Shown: positions 32,388 through 63,667 of the stretch, in pieces
How the letters are laid out: each line of letters opens with the position of its first letter
How positions within the stretch are numbered: the stretch's first letter is position 1
Assembly: GCA_903952265.1 (NCBI GenBank)
Contig: CAJBEU010000002.1
Coordinates: 124,001-188,000 of the forward strand
Direction of reading: 5' to 3'
DNA: 64,000 nt
Source of the DNA: an uncultured Rickettsiales bacterium
GTDB lineage: Bacteria; Pseudomonadota; Alphaproteobacteria; Rickettsiales; Rickettsiaceae
Notes under the pieces: generated by a model
What the model was told of the DNA's origin: nothing
Databases searched by the model: none
The model's input: only the letters and a program-made list of their open reading frames with translations
Program-made: the position numbers and the translations under genes

Positions 32388-33242
32388 CTAACCATCTGTA
32401 TGCGTTTCGGCATTTTGCAGCCTAAGTTGTTGCATTAAATTGAAAAAATCTCGAATAGCTTTATTCATCAAGAACTCTTGTGTTTCGTTTTCCTTAAAAA
32501 GTAGTTTTTGATTTTGAGTGACATCAGAATTTTTTGTTAAAATTCTATAGCTAGTGTCAAAAAAGATTTGTCCATCCTTAGAAAAAGAAAATTCTCCGGT
32601 GGCCACTACCATAATTTTGTTAACAGAAATTTGTAGAGCTTTTTCTATATGAGAATAATTCTCTCCTTTTAGTAAGCGTTTTGCTATTTCGTCGTCCCTT
32701 TTTAATAAAATTATTTTGTTTTTCTTTAGCTCTTCTGGAATGGATTTCCAAGATTCATTCCACTTGGTATTTTCATAATGACATTTGTTGTTTCTTTTAA
32801 ATATTGGCAGTAAGTAAATTTGCTTAGGAGATAGATTTGCAAACCTTGGTACATATTTTGCTAGTATATCTAACGTCTGAGTGGAGCTTTGTTTATAGGT
32901 GACCTCTGCTTTGTAGTAATGAGGAAACTGTTCTTCTTTGTGAATTGCAGCTATTTGCAAGCATTCTTGTAGAGCACTAGAGGGAATTTTTGATAGTTCT
33001 TGAGTAGTAACTTTTATTTTGTTTTTATCTATGAAAAGTCTTAATGCTAATTTTCTACCTTGATTTAGCGCTATGTTTTTTGCTTGAGCTGGCGTATCAC
33101 CACGTGCTTCTATTTGTAACATAGAAATAAAATCTATGTTTACAGATGCTGTTGAAAGAAGTGGGAGAGCAAGAGCGCAGTAGAAAAAGCATGCCAAGTG
33201 CCAAAAATTTCTCACGGATATTGAATTAATCTGAGGAAGCAA
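32388..33242 (-). CDS. Secreted DUF2066-like protein
   Basis: 284 residues with an N-terminal hydrophobic signal (about 12-32). The segment IEARGDTPAQAKNIALNQG followed by RKLALRLF resembles the AxxxAxxxG...AL..L pattern that opens DUF2066 proteins of Alphaproteobacteria. The rest shows strands such as IYLLPIFKR and NKIMVVATGEFSF. Function is unknown. The gene overlaps the 3' end of grpE by 17 bases, so the two are likely co-transcribed. I am sure it is a gene, less sure of the family. Confidence 0.62.
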   Translation of the reverse strand: MLPQINSISVRNFWHLACFFYCALALPLLSTASVNIDFISMLQIEARGDTPAQAKNIALNQGRKLALRLFIDKNKIKVTTQELSKIPSSALQECLQIAAIHKEEQFPHYYKAEVTYKQSSTQTLDILAKYVPRFANLSPKQIYLLPIFKRNNKCHYENTKWNESWKSIPEELKKNKIILLKRDDEIAKRLLKGENYSHIEKALQISVNKIMVVATGEFSFSKDGQIFFDTSYRILTKNSDVTQNQKLLFKENETQEFLMNKAIRDFFNLMQQLRLQNAETHTDG

Positions 33243-33813
33243 CTGATACTAACGCGGCTCTTAGTAATCTATCTTCTATCTTATATCCAATCTGCATAAC
33301 TTCTATTATTGTGCTTTCTTTTTGCAAAGTATTTCGTACTTGTGAAACTGCGTGATGTGATTCGTAATCAAAGGCTTCTCCGGTTTTTGGCTCGATCTTT
33401 TTTATTTTGAATTTTGTAAATATATTTTCAAGCTGAGCTTTTGTAAGTTTTACTCCTGCAATGGTTTGTTTTAGGGAAACAAGGTCGTCTTTTTCATTTT
33501 TCAAAGCCATGTCTAGATTATCCATGACATTGATTATCTCTTTTGCAATGCTGGTAAGAGCGTATTTTTTTATTTCTGCTATTTGAGCCTCGTACCTGTT
33601 GCGCATATTTTGAGCTTCTAAAAGGCACTTTAGCATCTCTTCTTCGCAGTTTTTCAGCCTAGCCTTTAGCTCATTTTCTTCGCTAAATTCTAACGTTTTG
33701 TCCTCTTCTTTATTTGACAGCTTGTCTTTTTCTGAAGTTGAAGTATCGGGGCTTATTTGCTCTATTGTCTCTTTTTTAAGAAACTCGTTTTCTAAGTCTT
33801 GCTTAATTTCCAT
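33226..33813 (-). CDS. grpE: Nucleotide exchange factor GrpE
   Basis: 195 residues from ATG 33813; a TTG three codons upstream is possible. An acidic disordered N-terminus leads into the long paired helix (LLEAQNMRNRYEAQIAEIKK and IINVMDNLDMALKN), then the beta domain with FDYESHHAVSQV and VMQIGYKIEDRLLRAALV, the GrpE C-terminal signature. GrpE releases ADP from DnaK (dnaK is at 53824). It is separated from dnaK-dnaJ by 20 kb. Confidence 0.94.
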   Translation of the reverse strand: MEIKQDLENEFLKKETIEQISPDTSTSEKDKLSNKEEDKTLEFSEENELKARLKNCEEEMLKCLLEAQNMRNRYEAQIAEIKKYALTSIAKEIINVMDNLDMALKNEKDDLVSLKQTIAGVKLTKAQLENIFTKFKIKKIEPKTGEAFDYESHHAVSQVRNTLQKESTIIEVMQIGYKIEDRLLRAALVSVASSD

Positions 33814-34790: not shown

Positions 34791-35888
34791 ATGATATACC
34801 TAGACCACAACGCAACTACTCCCTTTTTATTTAGAGAAGATTTAGCAGAATTATTAGTTAGACCTCTAAATCCTTCTTCTGTTCATACTTTTGGAAGATT
34901 TGCTAGAAGCATTTTGGAAAATGCGAGAAGGTCGATACTTAAGTCTTTAGGTGCAAATACTACAGACCATAGTTTAGTTTTTACTGGATCTGGCACGGAG
35001 GCAAATAATCTTGTCATAAACAGCTTTGACAAAGGTAATGTTTTTGCTTTAGCAACAGAACATTCTTCAATTTTAAGCAACTCCCATGTTAAGCCCATAT
35101 CCGTAAATTCATCAGGAATAATAAATATTGAGAATTTAGTTGAATTGCTAAAGGGCGCTGACTTGTCGAAACAAACTTTAGTTTGCGTAATGTTTGCAAA
35201 TAATGAGACGGGCGCTATTCAGCCTTTAGAAAAAGTTAAAGATATTGTGAGATCATACGGTGTCAATTTTCATAGCGATTGTGTTCAGGGCCTTGGAAAG
35301 GTACATTTGAATTTTGAGGACATAGGTGCAGACAGCATTGCAATATCGGCCCATAAATGTGGAGGTTTGGCTGGAATAGGGGCGCTTGTTTATAAAAACT
35401 CTTTAAAAATAGTTCCTCAAATTTTAGGGGGAGGACAAGAAAAAGGAATGAGAGCCGGTACTGAGAGCGTTATTCATGCTCATTTGTTTGCAAAAGCTGT
35501 AGAACTTGCTAAGGATTCTTGTGACAGCTATTTTGTTAAAACTAAAGTCTTGAGAGACAAAATGGAAAAAGAAATCGGTAACATTTGTGAGGACGTCATC
35601 TTTGCTTCTAACTTGGTTTCTAGGTTGCCTAATACGTCTACAATTATTATGCCAAAAGTCTCTGCTCAGATACAGCTTATGCGTTTTGACCTTGCTGGCT
35701 TTGCTATTAGCTCTGGCTCTGCTTGCTCCTCTGGAAAAATAGGAAAGTCGCATGTTTTGCTTGCTATGGGAATGAAAGAGGATCAAGTAAATTCAGCTAT
35801 AAGGGTTAGTTTTGGCATGGAAAATACTTTGACCGAGACAGAGGCTTTTATAGATGCTTGGTCTGAGGTATATAGAGATTTTATATAA
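34791..35888 (+). CDS. Cysteine desulfurase, NifS/IscS-like paralogue
   Basis: 365 residues. MIYLDHNATTPF opens the PLP fold; ISAHKCGGLAGIGAL holds the Schiff-base Lys and SSGSACSSG the persulfide Cys. It has [15 protein letters not shown] like IscS. It is shorter and more divergent than the IscS encoded next, from which it is separated by 63 bases that hold a promoter. Rickettsiales commonly carry this tandem pair. It takes sulfur from cysteine; whether it serves Fe-S clusters or thio-modification of tRNA is unknown. Confidence 0.9.
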   Translation: MIYLDHNATTPFLFREDLAELLVRPLNPSSVHTFGRFARSILENARRSILKSLGANTTDHSLVFTGSGTEANNLVINSFDKGNVFALATEHSSILSNSHVKPISVNSSGIINIENLVELLKGADLSKQTLVCVMFANNETGAIQPLEKVKDIVRSYGVNFHSDCVQGLGKVHLNFEDIGADSIAISAHKCGGLAGIGALVYKNSLKIVPQILGGGQEKGMRAGTESVIHAHLFAKAVELAKDSCDSYFVKTKVLRDKMEKEIGNICEDVIFASNLVSRLPNTSTIIMPKVSAQIQLMRFDLAGFAISSGSACSSGKIGKSHVLLAMGMKEDQVNSAIRVSFGMENTLTETEAFIDAWSEVYRDFI

Positions 35889-35951: not shown

Positions 35952-37208
35952 ATGACTCAGTATTTAAGAGATAAATTAAAAGCGGAAGGAAGGTTGCCTG
36001 TATATATGGATTATCAGGCTACAACCCCTCTGGACCCAAGAGTGCTTGATTTTATGATGCCTTATTTGACAAACAAATTTGGTAATCCTCATTCTAGGAC
36101 TCACATCTTTGGGCATGAGGCAGAGGAAGCTATTGAAGAAGCAAGAGTTCATGTTGCGTCTTTGATTGGAGCTTTGCCCAAAGAAGTTGTTTTTACTTCT
36201 GGTGCTACTGAATCTAATAACATGGCCATTAGAGGCCTTGCTTATTTTTATAAAAAACACAAAAAGCACATAGTGGTATTAAAAACAGAGCATAAGTGCG
36301 TGATGGAGTCTTGTCGTCAACTTGAAAAAGAAGGCTTTGACGTCACTTATCTTGAGGTTTTAAACAGTGGTTTAGTTGACCTAAAAACTCTGGAATCTAG
36401 CATCAAAGAAGACACATTGGTGGTTTCGATTATGGCTATAAATAACGAAACTGGAGTGATTCAACCTTTAGAAGAAATAGGAAAGCTTTGTAGGGCTAAA
36501 GGCGTATTTTTTCACTCAGATATTGCTCAGGCATTTGGTAAGATTCCTATAGATGTCAACAATTGTAATATTGACCTTGCTAGTATATCCGGACACAAAA
36601 TCTACGGTCCGAAAGGAATAGGCGCTTTATACGTGAGAAAAAGTGGAAAAAATCGAGTAAGACTTCAGGCTCTTATAAATGGAGGAGGACAAGAAAAAGG
36701 TATGAGATCTGGAACACTGTCTCCAGCTCTTGTGGCTGGTCTGGGAAAAGCTTCAAAAATTGCATTAGAGGACATGGGCAATGATTTGGATCACGTGAAA
36801 ATGCTTTATCAAACTTTTACAAACATGATTCTTTCCGCAATACCTGAAACAACCTTAAACGGCCATCCTTTGCATAGATATTATGGAAATGCAAATCTAA
36901 GTTTTGCGTGCGTAGAGGGAGAGTCTTTGATATTAGCTTTGAGAGAAGATTTAGCGGTATCTTCTGGATCTGCATGTACATCTGGCTCTCTTGAATCGTC
37001 TTATGTGTTAAAAGCTATGGGAGTTAGTGATGATTTATCTCATACCTCAATTCGTTTTGGCTTTGGAAGATTTACAACTAAAGAAGAGGTAGAATATGCT
37101 GCCAGCGTTTTGATTCCTAAAGTTGAAAAATTAAGGCACATGAGCCCCCTTTGGGAAATGATGCAAGATGGAATTGACTTAAAATCTATTCAGTGGTCCA
37201 CTCATTGA
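35952..37208 (+). CDS. iscS: Cysteine desulfurase IscS
   Basis: 418 residues. [16 protein letters not shown], the Schiff-base Lys in [16 protein letters not shown], the [15 protein letters not shown] segment and the catalytic Cys loop [17 protein letters not shown] are textbook group I IscS. The enzyme passes sulfur from cysteine to IscU, encoded next. An extension of 18 residues precedes the fold, as in other alphaproteobacterial and mitochondrial relatives. Confidence 0.96.
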
Positions 37209-38063: not shown

Positions 38064-38576
38064 ATGAATAACGATTACTTTGATCTACTTCAGATTGAAA
38101 AGGGCTTTTCCATAAATTTGGAAATTTTGGAGGGCAACTATTTGCACCTACAAACAAAATATCATCCAGATCAGGCTGATGACTCTGTTCAGCGAGTTAA
38201 ATTTCTTAATATTTCTGCAAACCTAAATGCTGCTTATAAAACTCTTGCAAATGATTTTGCAAGGGCTCAATACTTGCTTTTACTCAATGGATTATCCCTA
38301 GAAGACGTAAAATCAATAGGCGCTTATTCCGCATTTTTGCAACAAATTTTGGAAGAGACTTTAGAAAAAAACGAATTTTTGCAAAATATCGATGATCAAG
38401 CTCAATTGCTGGCATTTTTGGAAAGCCAAAAATGCAGTCGTGAAGAACTTCTAACTAAAATGCATAGGGCCTTTATCGATGCAAATATGCAAAATTTTCT
38501 TCTTTATACTTATCAAATGAAATATTTAGATAAAATTGTATCAGCTGCTCAACAAAAGCTTTTTAGATATTGTTGA
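38064..38576 (+). CDS. hscB: Fe-S assembly co-chaperone HscB
   Basis: 170 residues. The J-domain starts MNNDYFDLLQIEKGF and has an intact HPD (34-36, TKYHPDQADD); the C-terminal three-helix IscU-binding domain includes CSREELLTKMHRAF. HscB brings IscU to its Hsp70 and triggers ATP hydrolysis. It is the last gene of the operon: the next gene, mscS, is convergent and starts two bases later, so hscA and fdx are absent from the usual place. The general DnaK is a candidate partner. Confidence 0.88.
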   Translation: MNNDYFDLLQIEKGFSINLEILEGNYLHLQTKYHPDQADDSVQRVKFLNISANLNAAYKTLANDFARAQYLLLLNGLSLEDVKSIGAYSAFLQQILEETLEKNEFLQNIDDQAQLLAFLESQKCSREELLTKMHRAFIDANMQNFLLYTYQMKYLDKIVSAAQQKLFRYC

Positions 38577-52570: not shown

Positions 52571-53716
52571 CTATCTCCATATATCTTTTACTTTTTCAAA
52601 TAAACTTTTCTGATTTCCGCCATTTTCGCTTTGTTCTAAAGCTTGTAGTTCTGTTAGAATGGTTCTTTTTTGTTTCGTTAAAGTTTTGGGCACAGATATG
52701 TAAACGTCTACGAATAAATCTCCCCTTTCCTGAGATCTCAACCTGGGCATTCCTTTGCCTGTAACTTTGATTCTGTGATCATTTTGAGTACCGGGAGGAA
52801 TAGTAATTTCTATGGATTCTCTGTCTATAGTTTCTGCGCTAATGTTTCCTCCTAGAGCTGCCGTAGAGAATGAAATAGGAAGTTTGCAATATAAACAGTC
52901 ATCTCGTACCTTGAATATGGAATGCTGTTTAATTGAAATAACTACAAATAAATTACCAGAGGCTCCTCCTCTGATTCCAGCTTCTCCTTCTCCAGTTAAT
53001 TTTATGTGATTTTCGTGTTGGACGCCCTTTGGAATAGAGATTTTTATCTTTCTATTCTTATTTACTCTTCCCTCTCCGGAGCATTCTTTACAGAGATCTT
53101 TGATTATTTTACCAGAGCCATTGCAGTAGCTACATGTCTGTTTAATTTGAAAGAATCCGTGCTGGGTCAGTATGCTGCCTCTACCTCCACAGTTATTACA
53201 ATCTTTTGTGGAAGTAGCTTTGCTTCCTAATCCTTTGCAGCCTGAACATTTAGTTGGTGCAGAAAAAGAAATTTCAGTTTCAATGCCAGAGAAAGCTTCC
53301 TCTAAAGTTATGGACATATTGTATTTTATGTCTGATCCTCGTATTGGTTGCCAGACATTTTGAGTTGCAGTGTTACCTTTACCCATGAGGTCGTCAAACA
53401 TGTCAAAGATATCAAATCCAGCACCGCCTCTGCCAAAAGATTCAAAGCCCCTGGCGTCAAAGCCAGACCCACCACTATAGTATTGTTGCTGTTGAGTTGA
53501 TCCAAAGTCAGAGGTTCCGTATTTATCGTAGCTTTCCCTCTTTGCATCATTTTCAAGTACTACGTAAGCTTGATTGAGTTCTTGCAATTTTGTTTTGGCA
53601 GAGTCATCTGTTTTGCTAAGGCGGTGATATTTTTTTACAAGCTCTCTGTAGGCAGATTTAATTTCTGCTTTGCTTGCCCCCTTTTCAAGGCCTAAGACTT
53701 TGTAATAATCTGTCAT
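52571..53716 (-). CDS. dnaJ: Chaperone DnaJ with HPD motif replaced by HRL
   Basis: 381 residues with the full type I layout. J-domain 1-65 (YYKVLGLEKGASKAEIK, then ELNQAYVVLENDAKRESYD), Gly/Phe-rich linker (about 75-105), four zinc-binding CxxCxGxG repeats (CSGCKGLG, CNNCGGRG, CSYCNGSG, CKECSGEG) and the C-terminal substrate-binding barrel. The J-domain loop reads KYHRLSK (31-33 = HRL) where DnaJ proteins have HPD, the residues that trigger DnaK ATP hydrolysis. The gene follows dnaK on the same strand after 107 bases. Confidence 0.95.
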   Translation of the reverse strand: MTDYYKVLGLEKGASKAEIKSAYRELVKKYHRLSKTDDSAKTKLQELNQAYVVLENDAKRESYDKYGTSDFGSTQQQQYYSGGSGFDARGFESFGRGGAGFDIFDMFDDLMGKGNTATQNVWQPIRGSDIKYNMSITLEEAFSGIETEISFSAPTKCSGCKGLGSKATSTKDCNNCGGRGSILTQHGFFQIKQTCSYCNGSGKIIKDLCKECSGEGRVNKNRKIKISIPKGVQHENHIKLTGEGEAGIRGGASGNLFVVISIKQHSIFKVRDDCLYCKLPISFSTAALGGNISAETIDRESIEITIPPGTQNDHRIKVTGKGMPRLRSQERGDLFVDVYISVPKTLTKQKRTILTELQALEQSENGGNQKSLFEKVKDIWR

Positions 53717-53823: not shown

Positions 53824-55746
53824 TCATTTTGAAACGTCTTCATATTGTGCATCTATTTCCTTCTTTTTGTCACCTTCTCCTTGATCTTTTTTCTCTTGAT
53901 CTTGACTTTCATACACAGCAGTTCCTATTTTTTGTGAACTAGTTTTTAGCGCTTCAATCTTAGCCTCAATATCTGAAATCTGCTCTGAGCCCAGAGATGT
54001 CTTTAGTGCTTTTATGTCAGATTCGATTGTTTCTTTATCAGATGAGGAGATTTTATCTCCGTACTCACTCAGACTTTTCTCAGTTCCTCTAATTAAGCTT
54101 TCTGCTTCGTTTTTAACAGAGAGCATTTCTTTGTAACGTTTGTCTTCTTCTGAGTGTGCTTCTACATCTGCCATGATTTTTGCAATTTCTTCTTCGCTTA
54201 GACCCCCTGCGTTATGAATTTTAATCGAGTTCTCTTTGCCTGTTTTTTGGTCTTTTGCAGAAACGTGAAGTATTCCATTCATGTCTAGTTCAAAAGTTAC
54301 AGCAATTTTAGGTACTCCCATAGGGGCTGGAGCAATACCGGTGAGTTCAAAAGTACCAAGCTTTTTATTATCTTTTACTCTGGTTCTTTCTCCTTGATAG
54401 ACTTCGATTGTTACAGCGGTTTGGTTATCCACTGCAGTTGAAAAGCCTTCCTGTACTTTTTTGGCAGGAATCGGTTCTGCTTTTGGTATAATTATATGAA
54501 ATATTCCTTTCTCAGATCCTTGTTGAGTTGCTATTCCAAGTGAGATTGGCAGCACATCCCTTACAGTAATGCCAGTTTCTATACCTTCCAGCTCTCCAGC
54601 CGCATGAATGGCAGCTCCTATGGCAACAGCTTCATCTGGATTGATACCCTTGTGAGGTTTTTTTCCAAAGAATTTGTGCACAGTGTCTATTATTTTAGGC
54701 ATACGTGTCATACCTCCCACTAAGACTACCTCGTCTATATCTGACGTGGAAAGTCCTGCATCTTTTAAGGCTTGCTTACAAGGCTCGATTGTTTTTTGAA
54801 TTAAATCGTCAACCAAAGATTCCAATTTGGACCTTGTAATTCTTTTGAGCAAATGTTTAGGACCAGAGCTATCAGCTGTAATGTAAGGTAGGTTGATTTC
54901 AGTTTCTTCTACAGTTGAAAGATCTTTTTTTGCTTTTTCTGTGGCTTCTTTTAGTCTTTGCAGAGCAAGCGGATCTTTACTTAGGTCTACTCCGGTTTCT
55001 TGCTTAAACTCATTTACTAGGTACTGAAGCAATCTCATGTCAAAGTCTTCTCCTCCGAGAAATGTATCTCCACTTGTAGATTTAACGTCAAAGAACCCTT
55101 CCACTATCTCTAAAATTGACACGTCAAAGGTTCCGCCACCAAGGTCATATACTGCTATTTTACGCTCTGTTTTGTCGCCTCTTTTATTGAGTCCGTAGGC
55201 AACAGCTGCTGATGTTGGTTCTCTTAGTATGACCACTTTCTTTAATCCTGCAGCTTGAGCGGCATCTTTTGTAGCTTTAAGCTGGTCATCATCAAAATAG
55301 GCTGGTACGGTTATTACCGCTTCTTCTACTTTGGCGTGTAATTTGCTTTCAGCAGATTCGATCAAGTTACGCAAAATTATTGCACTAATTGCTTCTGGGG
55401 ACTTCTTTTCACCTTGCGCTTCCACCCAAGCTCTGCCTGTACCATTTGTTGCTTCCACAATTTTGTAAGAGACCAGTTTTTGTCCGTTTATTACAGTTGG
55501 GTCGTTATATTTTTTTCCAATCAAGCGTTTTACGGCGTGAATTGTGTTCATTGGATTAGTAACAGCTTGACGCTTTGCACTTCCACCAACCAATATTTTT
55601 CCTTCTTTTGTAAATGCTACTATGGATGGCGTTGTACGTTCTCCTTCGCTATTTTCTAAGACTCTTGCATTTCCATTCTCAAATACTGCCACGCATGAGT
55701 TTGTTGTTCCAAGATCTATTCCTATTGTTCTTTTTATAGTTGTCAT
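53824..55746 (-). CDS. dnaK: Chaperone DnaK (Hsp70)
   Basis: 640 residues. [17 protein letters not shown], the [16 protein letters not shown] phosphate loop, the [12 protein letters not shown] adenosine loop, and the linker/SBD region ([13 protein letters not shown]) are all standard. A Shine-Dalgarno AGGTG (55752-55756) stands five bases before the ATG. DnaK folds client proteins with DnaJ and GrpE. Since hscA is missing from the isc operon it may also serve IscU/HscB. A heat-shock-type promoter lies upstream. Confidence 0.98.
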
Positions 55747-56584: not shown

Positions 56585-59257
56585 ATGAAACATCAATTTT
56601 TGCATAATTTTTCGGGTAAAGATCGTTTTAAGCAGCAAAAGAGTTCAAATTATCCAGACAAAGAGGAAGGAGCGTTTGCAAGAACAGAAGAAGATGATGA
56701 TGAGTTTATTCCTCTAGTGTTGGGTAATTCAAGGGTTAAAGGACGTCTAATTTGTAGTTTTGGGATTACCAGTTCTCCCAACTTTGCTACTTTTGCAATA
56801 GGAATTTGCCAGGGTCCTATTACCTCAGTTAACACGATTTACGTTAATGGAGTAAAAAAGGTTTTTGATGCAGACAGATGTATAGTGCATCTTGGTACTT
56901 CAGATCAAGAGGTGGACTCCACTTTGTACAGTTATGAAGAAGATATTCCGGCCTTTAGAGGCTTAGCCTATGTTGTTTTTCCTAAATTTGTTTTGGAGTT
57001 ACCTGAAAAACAAGGTTTAGAATCAGGTTCTGACATTCAGTCCTTATCAGAAGAAGATTTGGATGATTTTATTCCTCGATTTTCTTTTGACGTAATTTCA
57101 TTGCGTCACGAACATGAGGAAAGAGTAAGTAAAATTAGGGCTACTAACATTATTCCTGGATGCGGAGAGTTTGTATACGACACCAGAAGTTTGTATAAAT
57201 CACTTGATCAAGGTACCCAAGAATCCATAAAAACAAAAATTAATTATTCCAACGGAGAGGCAAATAGCTTAGTAAATGTGGATTTTTTGAAAAAAGAATT
57301 ACCAAAGGTAGAGTGGGTAGCTCCTGTGGTTTGTTGGTTTGGCAATAATAAAGAGATAGAAAAATGTACGATATTGCCTCGTGTTGAGCATGGTCCGGGT
57401 ATTGCTGACATTTTTGAAGTTAATGGATCAAAAGTTGAATGGAAAGTTGCTGGATATAATCGATCAACAGCTAAAATTGTAGGTTTTGATAAAGGTAAGA
57501 TGAGGTATGGAGGTACAGTAAGTGATGAGAGTGTAGTAAATTATTTAGCTATGCTAAAAGGCCGAGGTTATAAAATCATGTTTTATCCCATGATTTTTCT
57601 AGATATAGAAGGTAAGTCTTGGCGTGGAGAGATGAATGGCACGTGGGACCAGGTTGAGAAATTTTTTATCAAGCCTGGGGGTTACAATAACTTTATTTTG
57701 CATTATGCAGAACTTGTCAAAGACTATGTTGATGCTTTTGTTATAGGATCTGAACTTGAGGGCATAACGAGCATTTATAGAGAGCAAAATGGCGTAAGAG
57801 AATTTCTTGTTGCAAGAGAATTGGGCGACCTAGCTTACAAAGTTCGTGCAGTTTTCTATGAAGCAGACAAGCAACATGTCAAAATTACTTATGCGGCTAA
57901 TTGGTCCGAATACCATAGTAAAGAGGGTTGGTATCATTTAGACAAGCTTTGGATGTGTGATGCAATAGATTTTATCGGTATAGATGCATATTTTCCAGCA
58001 ACAGATACTTGCGACAGTAGCATTGATTATCATCAAATAAAGGAAGGGTATAAAAAAGGAGATACGTATGAATATTATTACGAAAACGGCGCTCGCAAGT
58101 ACTGCGATCCTAAATTTGCGCTAAAAAATATAGAATATTGGTGGAAGAATCGTCATTTAAACCCAGATGGACAAGATAGTGGATGGATTCCTGAATCCAA
58201 ACCAATTTGGCTTACTGAATTTGGCTTTTCCTCCTTGGACAAATCTACTAATGAGCCTAACGTATTTTTTGATCCTAATTCTGGGAGAAATTTACCCAAA
58301 CTTTCTTCTGGAGAGACTGATTTTGCACTGCAAGAACAAGCCATTTGTGCTTTAGTGGATCACTTTGACTCTATTTGCAGTTCAAAAGGAAGTAAAATGG
58401 TAGAGCAAATGTTTTTATGGTGCTGGGATTCCAGATATCCAGCTTGGCCAGACGAAAGCATAAAAGATTTGGATCAATTGCCGACATTTGATGAATCTGC
58501 AGTTGCAGAAGGGGGTATAGACACATGGGCTGACTCACCTAATTGGGAATCGGGGCATTGGATTAACGGTAAATTTTCTGGAATATCAATTCGCGAGGCT
58601 ATAGAAGAAATCTTTAGCAAAAGTGGATTTTCTTCAAAAGACTTTACTATTGACTCTAGATTATCTGGGTTGATTCGGGCCTTAACAATAAATTACAATT
58701 GTTCTGCTATTTCTTTGTTGGAAACTCTTAGGTTGCTTTATAAATTTGACGTTTTTTACTCACCAGAGGGAGTGTTTCATGTGATTGCAAGAGAATCTAA
58801 TTTTAACGTAGAAAAAAATACTTACGCAAACAGGCTGACTTTTGAGGATTTGAGGCATTCATCTAGCGCTCCTTCTTTTAAATTTTTGCAATTGCCAAAC
58901 GAAATAGAGCTAGGGCTTGTTTTTATTCCGGAAAATTCTTCAGAACTGGGTTTTGTAACAATTAATACAGAATCAAAGAAAAAAACAGATCTAAAGTTAC
59001 CTATAGTGATGTCCTTTGCTAAAGCCTCTAGCTCTGTGCACAAGATTTTGGAATCGATGCGGGAGAAAAATAATTTAGCTGTTATACAGATTCCATTTTA
59101 TTTTGAGGTCAAGCCTACTCAGGTGATTGAATTGAGAATTTCAAAAACTTCTATGCTGCTAAGAGTGATCTCTGTAAATTTTTACGAAAGAGAAAAAGAA
59201 TTGGTGTGTGTAAAATTACAGTCTTTAAAGTCTGAAAAATCTCTGCTTTTGTCTTAG
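56585..59257 (+). CDS. GTA TIM-barrel host-specificity/hub protein (gp15-like), compact form
   Basis: 890 residues. The central GTA TIM-barrel domain is recognisable from AMLKGRGYKIMFYPMIFLDI, DAFVIGSELEG, VKITYAANWSEYH, DFIGIDAYFP and PIWLTEFGFSS (about residues 330-600). A phage tail-3 like region follows, with IREAIEEIFSKSGFSSKDF and a receptor-binding type domain. In the Rhodobacter GTA this protein is the baseplate hub and has about 1300 residues with a Gly-rich hydrophobic start; both that start and several hundred residues of C-terminus are absent here. The frame is intact. Confidence 0.88.
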   Translation: MKHQFLHNFSGKDRFKQQKSSNYPDKEEGAFARTEEDDDEFIPLVLGNSRVKGRLICSFGITSSPNFATFAIGICQGPITSVNTIYVNGVKKVFDADRCIVHLGTSDQEVDSTLYSYEEDIPAFRGLAYVVFPKFVLELPEKQGLESGSDIQSLSEEDLDDFIPRFSFDVISLRHEHEERVSKIRATNIIPGCGEFVYDTRSLYKSLDQGTQESIKTKINYSNGEANSLVNVDFLKKELPKVEWVAPVVCWFGNNKEIEKCTILPRVEHGPGIADIFEVNGSKVEWKVAGYNRSTAKIVGFDKGKMRYGGTVSDESVVNYLAMLKGRGYKIMFYPMIFLDIEGKSWRGEMNGTWDQVEKFFIKPGGYNNFILHYAELVKDYVDAFVIGSELEGITSIYREQNGVREFLVARELGDLAYKVRAVFYEADKQHVKITYAANWSEYHSKEGWYHLDKLWMCDAIDFIGIDAYFPATDTCDSSIDYHQIKEGYKKGDTYEYYYENGARKYCDPKFALKNIEYWWKNRHLNPDGQDSGWIPESKPIWLTEFGFSSLDKSTNEPNVFFDPNSGRNLPKLSSGETDFALQEQAICALVDHFDSICSSKGSKMVEQMFLWCWDSRYPAWPDESIKDLDQLPTFDESAVAEGGIDTWADSPNWESGHWINGKFSGISIREAIEEIFSKSGFSSKDFTIDSRLSGLIRALTINYNCSAISLLETLRLLYKFDVFYSPEGVFHVIARESNFNVEKNTYANRLTFEDLRHSSSAPSFKFLQLPNEIELGLVFIPENSSELGFVTINTESKKKTDLKLPIVMSFAKASSSVHKILESMREKNNLAVIQIPFYFEVKPTQVIELRISKTSMLLRVISVNFYEREKELVCVKLQSLKSEKSLLLS

Positions 59258-62497: not shown

Positions 62498-63667
62498 ATG
62501 CTAAAAAAGATCTACTTTCCTGCTTTTTTTGTTCTGCTTATTTATCCTATCATTCTTGGCGTTCTTGCCTATTTTTATGTAAAGAACTTTGGTTTTGGCA
62601 TGTACGAGCTTTTGTTGATTTTGACAAGCTATTACGTGGTTAATATAACTATTGGAGTAGGTCTTCACAGATGCTGGGCCCACGGTGCGTTTGTTCCAAA
62701 TAAAGTCGTAGAACTTATTCTCATAGGACTTTCTTCCGTTGCTCTTCAGGGGCCAATTTTAAAATGGGTTTCTGATCATACAAGGCACCATGCTTACACA
62801 GATACTGACAAAGACCCGCATTCTCCGCTAAAATTTGGAGGAGGAATCAAAGGATTCCTTTGGTCTCATATAGGATGGATGCTTGTAAAATCTCCTTTGG
62901 ACATAGATAAATCTACCGTGAAAAAGTTTAGTCGCAACAAGCTTGTGATGCTTCAATTTAAATACTATTGGCAGGTAGTTCTCTTTACGAACACTATAGT
63001 GCCTTTTGCGATAGGCTTTTTGTGTACTGGCTCATATGTTGGAGGTATTGCTGGTTTTATATTTTTGGGAATAGGTAGGGCGATTCAGCAGCATGCTACT
63101 TTTTGCATCAATTCTATGACTCACTATTTTGGCAGCAAGGATTACGATAAAAATTCAACTGCTGGGGACATAGCTTGGATGGCTCCATTCTTATTAGGAG
63201 AAAATTGGCACAACTTTCATCATGCTTTTCCGTCTGATTACAGAAATGGTCCAAAATGGTATCAGTTTGACGTGCACAAATGGATCATATGGATTCTTGC
63301 TAAACTTAACCTTGCTCACGAGCTTAAGCTCACTTCTGATATTAGAATTATTGCTCAAAGAAAAGCAGCCTTGAGTTACTCTTTTAAAAGTATTTCTCAA
63401 AGATGGTCTGATTTACAAAAAAGATGTCAGGCTGAAGGTAAATTAGCCTTGAGCAATGTCACAAAGACTACAGAAGACATAAAGTCATACACCGCATTGG
63501 TTTTCAGGGCATATAACAAAAACCTATCCGATCTTTCTTTGCGAATCACATCTTTAATTGATTCTGAAGAGCTTTCAAAGAAATTGGTTGCAGATTGTTC
63601 TGAGCTACTGCTGAAATTTGAGAGCAACGTGAAAAAGTTGGAAAAAGAGGTTGTTGCCTCTACTTGA
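62498..63667 (+). CDS. Acyl-CoA/acyl-lipid delta-9-type fatty acid desaturase
   Basis: 389 residues. Four membrane helices and three His boxes: HRCWAH, HTRHH and NWHNFHH, the di-iron ligands of integral membrane desaturases. It introduces a cis double bond into fatty acyl chains, changing membrane fluidity. The catalytic domain ends near residue 290; a further 100 residues are highly charged and helical (for example LSKKLVADCSELLLKFESN) and have no counterpart in the shorter desaturases I know. Confidence 0.92.
   Translation: MLKKIYFPAFFVLLIYPIILGVLAYFYVKNFGFGMYELLLILTSYYVVNITIGVGLHRCWAHGAFVPNKVVELILIGLSSVALQGPILKWVSDHTRHHAYTDTDKDPHSPLKFGGGIKGFLWSHIGWMLVKSPLDIDKSTVKKFSRNKLVMLQFKYYWQVVLFTNTIVPFAIGFLCTGSYVGGIAGFIFLGIGRAIQQHATFCINSMTHYFGSKDYDKNSTAGDIAWMAPFLLGENWHNFHHAFPSDYRNGPKWYQFDVHKWIIWILAKLNLAHELKLTSDIRIIAQRKAALSYSFKSISQRWSDLQKRCQAEGKLALSNVTKTTEDIKSYTALVFRAYNKNLSDLSLRITSLIDSEELSKKLVADCSELLLKFESNVKKLEKEVVAST

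Follow-up and report, generated by a model that had tools for sequence, protein, structure and literature searches.

The window (the whole stretch of DNA analyzed here, 64,000 nucleotides) comes from an uncultured Rickettsiales bacterium of the family Rickettsiaceae (genome G000; 571,808 bases in two contigs) and carries, on its minus strand, dnaK with dnaJ directly downstream of it (Table 1). DnaK and its helper DnaJ together form one of life's most conserved protein-folding machines, and, to our knowledge, the contact between the HPD motif of DnaJ and R167 of DnaK is regarded as the universal switch of Hsp70 machines. We compared the pair with that of the MAG Rickettsiales bacterium RE-15aug16-152 (G001), which belongs to this genus but to a different species, and with that of Candidatus Sneabacter namystus (G018), the nearest outgroup by DnaJ. 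The gene order dnaK-dnaJ-uracil-DNA glycosylase-der is common to all three genomes, and each also has a gene resembling GTA_TIM near dnaK; the product of the one in the window (56585-59257), from a 572-kb genome, is 890 aa long and contains the TIM-barrel domain of gene transfer agents (Pfam GTA_TIM). A fatty acid desaturase-like gene (62498-63667, Pfam FA_desaturase) is likewise present in the very small genome.

Table 1. Features of the dnaK-dnaJ locus and of related chaperone genes in the window
Feature	Position	Strand	Remarks
dnaJ, 381 aa	52571..53716	-	Class A architecture: J-domain, G/F-rich region, zinc repeats, C-terminal domains
J-domain, DnaJ residues 1-65	53522..53716	-	Changes at conserved positions; predicted fold matches 5NRO
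HRL replacing HPD, DnaJ residues 31-33	53618..53626	-	Codons and alignment
Zinc-binding region	53069..53248	-	Four CxxCxGxG repeats, intact
dnaK, 640 aa	53824..55746	-	Both species differ at 67 of 318 otherwise conserved positions
DnaK Leu at E. coli R151	55279..55281	-	Allosteric relay
DnaK Val at E. coli R167	55231..55233	-	Partner of the HPD aspartate (PMC7289447, PMC8215388)
DnaK Arg at E. coli N170	55222..55224	-	
DnaK His at E. coli Q378	54604..54606	-	Second partner of the HPD aspartate (PMC8215388)
DnaK interdomain linker	54556..54570	-	ITVRD replacing VLLLD
DnaK 4-residue insertion	54508..54525	-	Near start of substrate-binding beta-domain; ATQQGSEKG versus ETLGG
DnaK Glu at E. coli D477	54289..54291	-	Contacts J-domain K48 (Gln here)
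hscB	38064..38576	+	The genome's one J-domain protein besides DnaJ; HPD kept (KYHPDQ)
grpE	33238..33714	-	Nucleotide exchange factor, retained; G000:C2:157238-157714

The DnaJ protein contains the Pfam domains DnaJ, DnaJ_CXXCXGXG, and DnaJ_C, and its J-domain scores 59.3 bits against the Pfam DnaJ model (cut-off 27.8). Against the NCBIfam models, it scores 386.5 for NF008035 (cut-off 338) and 356.6 for TIGR02349, just below the cut-off of 377.2. The plus strand at 53618-53626 reads AAGGCGGTG, so that codons 31 to 33 of the gene are CAC CGC CTT and encode H31-R32-L33, as a preliminary description of this DNA had read them. The remaining two frames do not contain HPD at these positions either; therefore, a local frameshift does not explain HRL. 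All the domain features of a class A J-domain protein are present (the J-domain, the G/F-rich region, the four zinc repeats, and the C-terminal domains), but the HPD that such a protein requires is HRL in both species of the genus. A recognizable J-domain in which HPD is nonconservatively replaced is what defines a type IV J-domain protein. This DnaJ is thus type IV by its loss of HPD, yet class A by its remaining domains.

In the sister species, HRL is written CAT CGT CTT, with codons that differ and residues that are identical. The two DnaJ proteins are 76% identical, and silent sites between the two species are at or near saturation. HPD is kept in all 29 of the other DnaJ proteins aligned (28 relatives, including Candidatus Sneabacter, plus E. 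coli). We also ran the Pfam J-domain model on 344 genomes of the order, picked 20 cases in which the hit was low-scoring or missing, and read such J-domains as they had. Both members of the genus were among the lowest-scoring full-length DnaJ proteins, and none of the weak scorers read was a further intact DnaJ lacking HPD, although lone changes could escape a screen ranked by score. The other low scorers had HPD, were other J-proteins, or were cut off at contig ends, apart from one disrupted gene with HPN. That J-like gene (L100, 1501-1680, minus strand), from another family of the order, has an internal TAG and is probably a decayed accessory J-protein.

The loss of HPD is fixed in the genus, of which two species are known. 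Sequencing error or a frameshift as the source of HRL is ruled out by the sister species and by the reading of all three frames. An artifact of sequencing, assembly, or binning is exceedingly improbable: the sister genome is a metagenome bin, but the two distinct species, with their saturated silent divergence, agree at all the changed sites through different codons, and the genes have conserved neighbors on contigs 333 kb and 205 kb long. The preliminary description also held that the zinc repeats are intact, that dnaJ follows dnaK, and that the gene is not decayed, and the intact repeats, the gene order, and the fixation in the genus bear this out.

Changes in DnaJ are concentrated in the J-domain. 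The derived residues there include R27E, A29V, P34R, D35L, F47L, and K48Q (E. coli numbering), and the J-domain is a hot spot of change within the protein, with 10 of its 27 conserved positions changed versus 7 of 64 in the rest of DnaJ (Fisher p=0.007). Positive charges steer the J-domain onto DnaK; R27E and K48Q remove two of them, which fits a loss of binding as well as it fits rewiring. In the predicted structure, the J-domain shows all four canonical helices, and its match to the DnaK-bound J-domain 5NRO_B has a Z score of 10.2 (1.4 A over 62 residues). In this model, helix II is predicted to span residues 16 to 34, running through H-R-L and leaving a three-residue turn, at a moderate block pLDDT of 71 to 83 and with no folded control. 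Simulations of P34A show the same extension of helix II (PMC13012618). The predicted structure of DnaK (pLDDT 60.7) was too poor and was set aside.

The partner protein has changed as well. DnaK is a complete Hsp70 with an intact nucleotide site (Pfam HSP70 score 740.9 bits); among the NCBIfam models, it scores 824.7 for NF001413 (cut-off 648) and 770.6 for TIGR02350 (cut-off 822.55), so that, like DnaJ, it passes one model and stays under the cut-off of the stricter one. The gene is not a misassigned HscA, as it scores under the HscA model cut-offs and a separate HscA lies at G000:C1:136043-137737. Compared with 28 relatives and E. coli, the DnaKs of both species carry R151L, R167V, N170R, E217D, Q378H, VLLLD to ITVRD, T395L, N415A, and D477E, so that the R167 and the hydrophobic linker of DnaK-type proteins are both missing; D393 of the linker is retained. 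The insertion listed in Table 1 is also fixed in both species and may alter client binding. R167 is invariant (100%) in 1560 DnaKs (PMC7289447). In the complex formed by the E. coli proteins, the HPD residue D35 bonds R167 and Q378, H33 bonds the L391 backbone, and K48 bonds D477 (PMC8215388), and A29-L392 is a co-evolution pair (PMC5519331). Changes at R167 raise basal ATPase and impair stimulation by DnaJ, and the linker hydrophobics and D393 are required for ATPase activation (PMC7289447, PMC8215388). Both members of these pairs have changed here: D35-R167/Q378 has become L-V/H, K48-D477 has become Q-E, and A29-L392 has become V-R.

Within DnaK, 7 of the 10 conserved positions of the J-contact and linker set are changed versus 67 of 318 overall (Fisher p=0.001, which is only indicative, as the list was compiled from published work after the R167 and linker changes had been noticed and its linker positions are not independent of one another). 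The nucleotide pocket has a single change among 17 conserved positions (E to D at 272), the other 16 matching the relatives, and the enrichment of changes in the wider allosteric relay set is not significant (3 of 15, p=0.65). Sneabacter, the next most divergent of the aligned DnaKs, has 29 changes, one of which is inside the J-contact and linker set. Searching the open-access literature, we found no report of a bacterial housekeeping DnaJ without HPD or of a DnaK without R167.

Since the two species separated, both proteins have been held under constraint. Among eight genes compared across this pair of species, none is better conserved than DnaK, at 90% identity (94% in the nucleotide-binding domain and 96% in the substrate-binding beta-domain). 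Within DnaJ, conservation is among the highest at the binding surface of the J-domain (90.5% for J helix II-III versus 54% for the G/F region). The corresponding values for HscA and HscB are 63% and 48%. In the DnaK tree, the stem of the genus has 1.23 changes per site and the two tips have 0.03 and 0.14 (the root is a midpoint root and the stem length is approximate). The ratio of between-group to within-group distance is 4.7 for DnaK, the highest of the eight genes, the others ranging from 1.5 to 3.9. Judged from these comparisons of sequences, DnaK changed in a burst on the stem and was constrained thereafter, which is the pattern of rewiring, not that of continuing decay.

As the preliminary description had proposed to check, we searched for other J-domains in the genome. 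HscB was the sole one, and it keeps HPD; a search of both genomes of the genus at E values as high as 10 yielded no third J-protein with HPD. HscB evolves far faster than DnaJ, the HPD nonetheless being kept. HscA retains R167, Q378, and D393 in these genomes, so the changes in DnaK are not a general trait of the Hsp70s of this genus. Two adjoining cysteine-desulfurase-like genes (34791-35888 and 35952-37208) lie in the Fe-S assembly cluster. GrpE, HtpG, and RpoH are present. ClpB, the disaggregase that partners DnaK and DnaJ, is missing from both genomes of the genus and present in Candidatus Sneabacter. Elsewhere in the Rickettsiales, three genomes that are 92 to 97% complete have no detectable DnaJ (G049, G255 [L123], and G256 [L125]) and are apparent natural losses. 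Their DnaKs, including that of G049 (G049:C6:703946-705805, L124), keep R151, R167, N170, Q378, and VLLLD. Absence of DnaJ alone, then, does not erode the receptor site of DnaK.

Change on the two sides of the J-domain contact is matched, fixed, and constrained, and the ATP site is intact. We consider it slightly better than an even bet (a probability of roughly 0.5) that the interface between the J-domain and DnaK has co-diverged into a rebuilt, HPD-independent contact and that the pair still works. Under such a reading, a nonionic Leu-Val pair would replace the aspartate-arginine trigger D35-R167, and the other contacts would have been adjusted. Without the proline, helix II would continue through H-R-L, and the J-domain would present a continuous helix, rather than the usual loop, to a reshaped groove beside the linker. 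The trigger for ATP hydrolysis might in that case have lower gain, or might combine client binding with the altered contact. Because both proteins are tightly preserved, the machine seems rewired rather than broken. Published work indicates that such a change is feasible: DnaK R167A is rescued by DnaJ D35N (PMC13012618), so the contact can shift on both sides, and stimulation of Hsp70 has been obtained with a designed J-like protein that lacks HPD (PMC13254874), so HPD is not strictly required.

The main rival to a rebuilt interface is that stimulation by the J-domain has been abandoned. DnaK would then be J-independent and weakly coupled, with client binding and GrpE as its drivers and possibly a higher basal ATPase, and DnaJ would be an HPD-independent holdase or client scanner acting through its zinc and C-terminal domains. 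We regard this as possible but on the unlikely side. It accommodates the joint change of HPD, R167, Q378, R151, N415, and the VLLL linker, the published effects of altering R167, the linker hydrophobics, and D393 (PMC7289447, PMC8215388), the absence of ClpB from both species while Sneabacter has it, and the relatives that apparently live without DnaJ. However, conservation of the J-domain surface would be unexpected without a partner, the DnaJ-less relatives keep a canonical site in DnaK, and GrpE and D393 are retained here. The holdase role suggested in the preliminary description faces the same difficulty: it is possible, but it leaves unexplained a helix II-loop-helix III surface that is about 90% identical despite saturated silent sites. 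That description was right that HPD is lost; its account of the consequences was incomplete, having overlooked DnaK's own loss of R167, Q378, and the VLLL linker. Its further suggestion, reliance on HscB, is unlikely for this very reason, as DnaK has lost the residues on which HPD acts while HscB has a dedicated partner, HscA, that keeps R167, Q378, and D393.

The small genome, the loss of ClpB, and the generally fast evolution of the lineage would also suit relaxed selection and drift as the genome shrinks, in which case both sides of the interface would be decaying and the proteins would be heading for loss. Such decay is improbable, given that DnaK leads the eight genes in conservation, that both species carry the same fixed changes, and that the catalytic residues, the zinc repeats, and GrpE are intact. 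Neither simple decay nor rescue by HscB has much support. More improbable still is capture of the J-domain by another partner (a protein, or the zinc or C-terminal part of DnaJ itself), with DnaK changing separately, for example in a new client or host setting. A J surface conserved between the species yet unlike that of every relative, and the insertion in DnaK, would fit such a capture, but dnaK and dnaJ are still adjacent, the changes map to matching contact pairs, and no candidate partner was found.

Among known systems, the canonical DnaK-DnaJ-GrpE machine of E. coli (5NRO) shares the gene pair, the full domain sets, GrpE, the intact ATP site, and the J-domain fold, but here both sides of the contact between HPD and R167, Q378, and the linker are replaced. 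The type IV (pseudo) J-proteins, such as DNAJB13 (HPL), Pam16, and the exported JDPs of Plasmodium, likewise have a recognizable J-domain with HPD nonconservatively replaced; the examples given in PMC13254874 are class B or C, whereas the protein described here is a class A housekeeping DnaJ whose partner Hsp70 has changed too. DjlB and DjlC of E. coli, with HscC, also combine a J-protein of changed motif (HPE) with a diverged Hsp70 (PMC13254874; HscC by description), but theirs is a conservative D-to-E change in a specialized accessory system. The laboratory suppressors that pair DnaJ D35N with DnaK R167H or R167A resemble our case in that both contact partners changed together (PMC13012618, PMC7289447). 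In comparison, the change here is natural, fixed, and far wider, extending to Leu and Val, the linker, Q378, R151, and N170.

We think it likely that this housekeeping Hsp70/J-protein pair has dispensed with the HPD-R167 trigger. It would then be either a re-engineering of the contact on both partners, natural, fixed, and the first of its kind, or a bacterial DnaK that is J-independent. Whether losses of HPD are accidents or are selected is described as enigmatic in a 2026 review (PMC13254874). In this genus, the partner has changed to match the loss, and strong constraint has followed, which makes the question testable, and the system offers two purifiable proteins together with the cell's own canonical HscA/HscB pair as an internal control. 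Either outcome would be informative, showing that the switch is open to rebuilding or that cells can manage without it.
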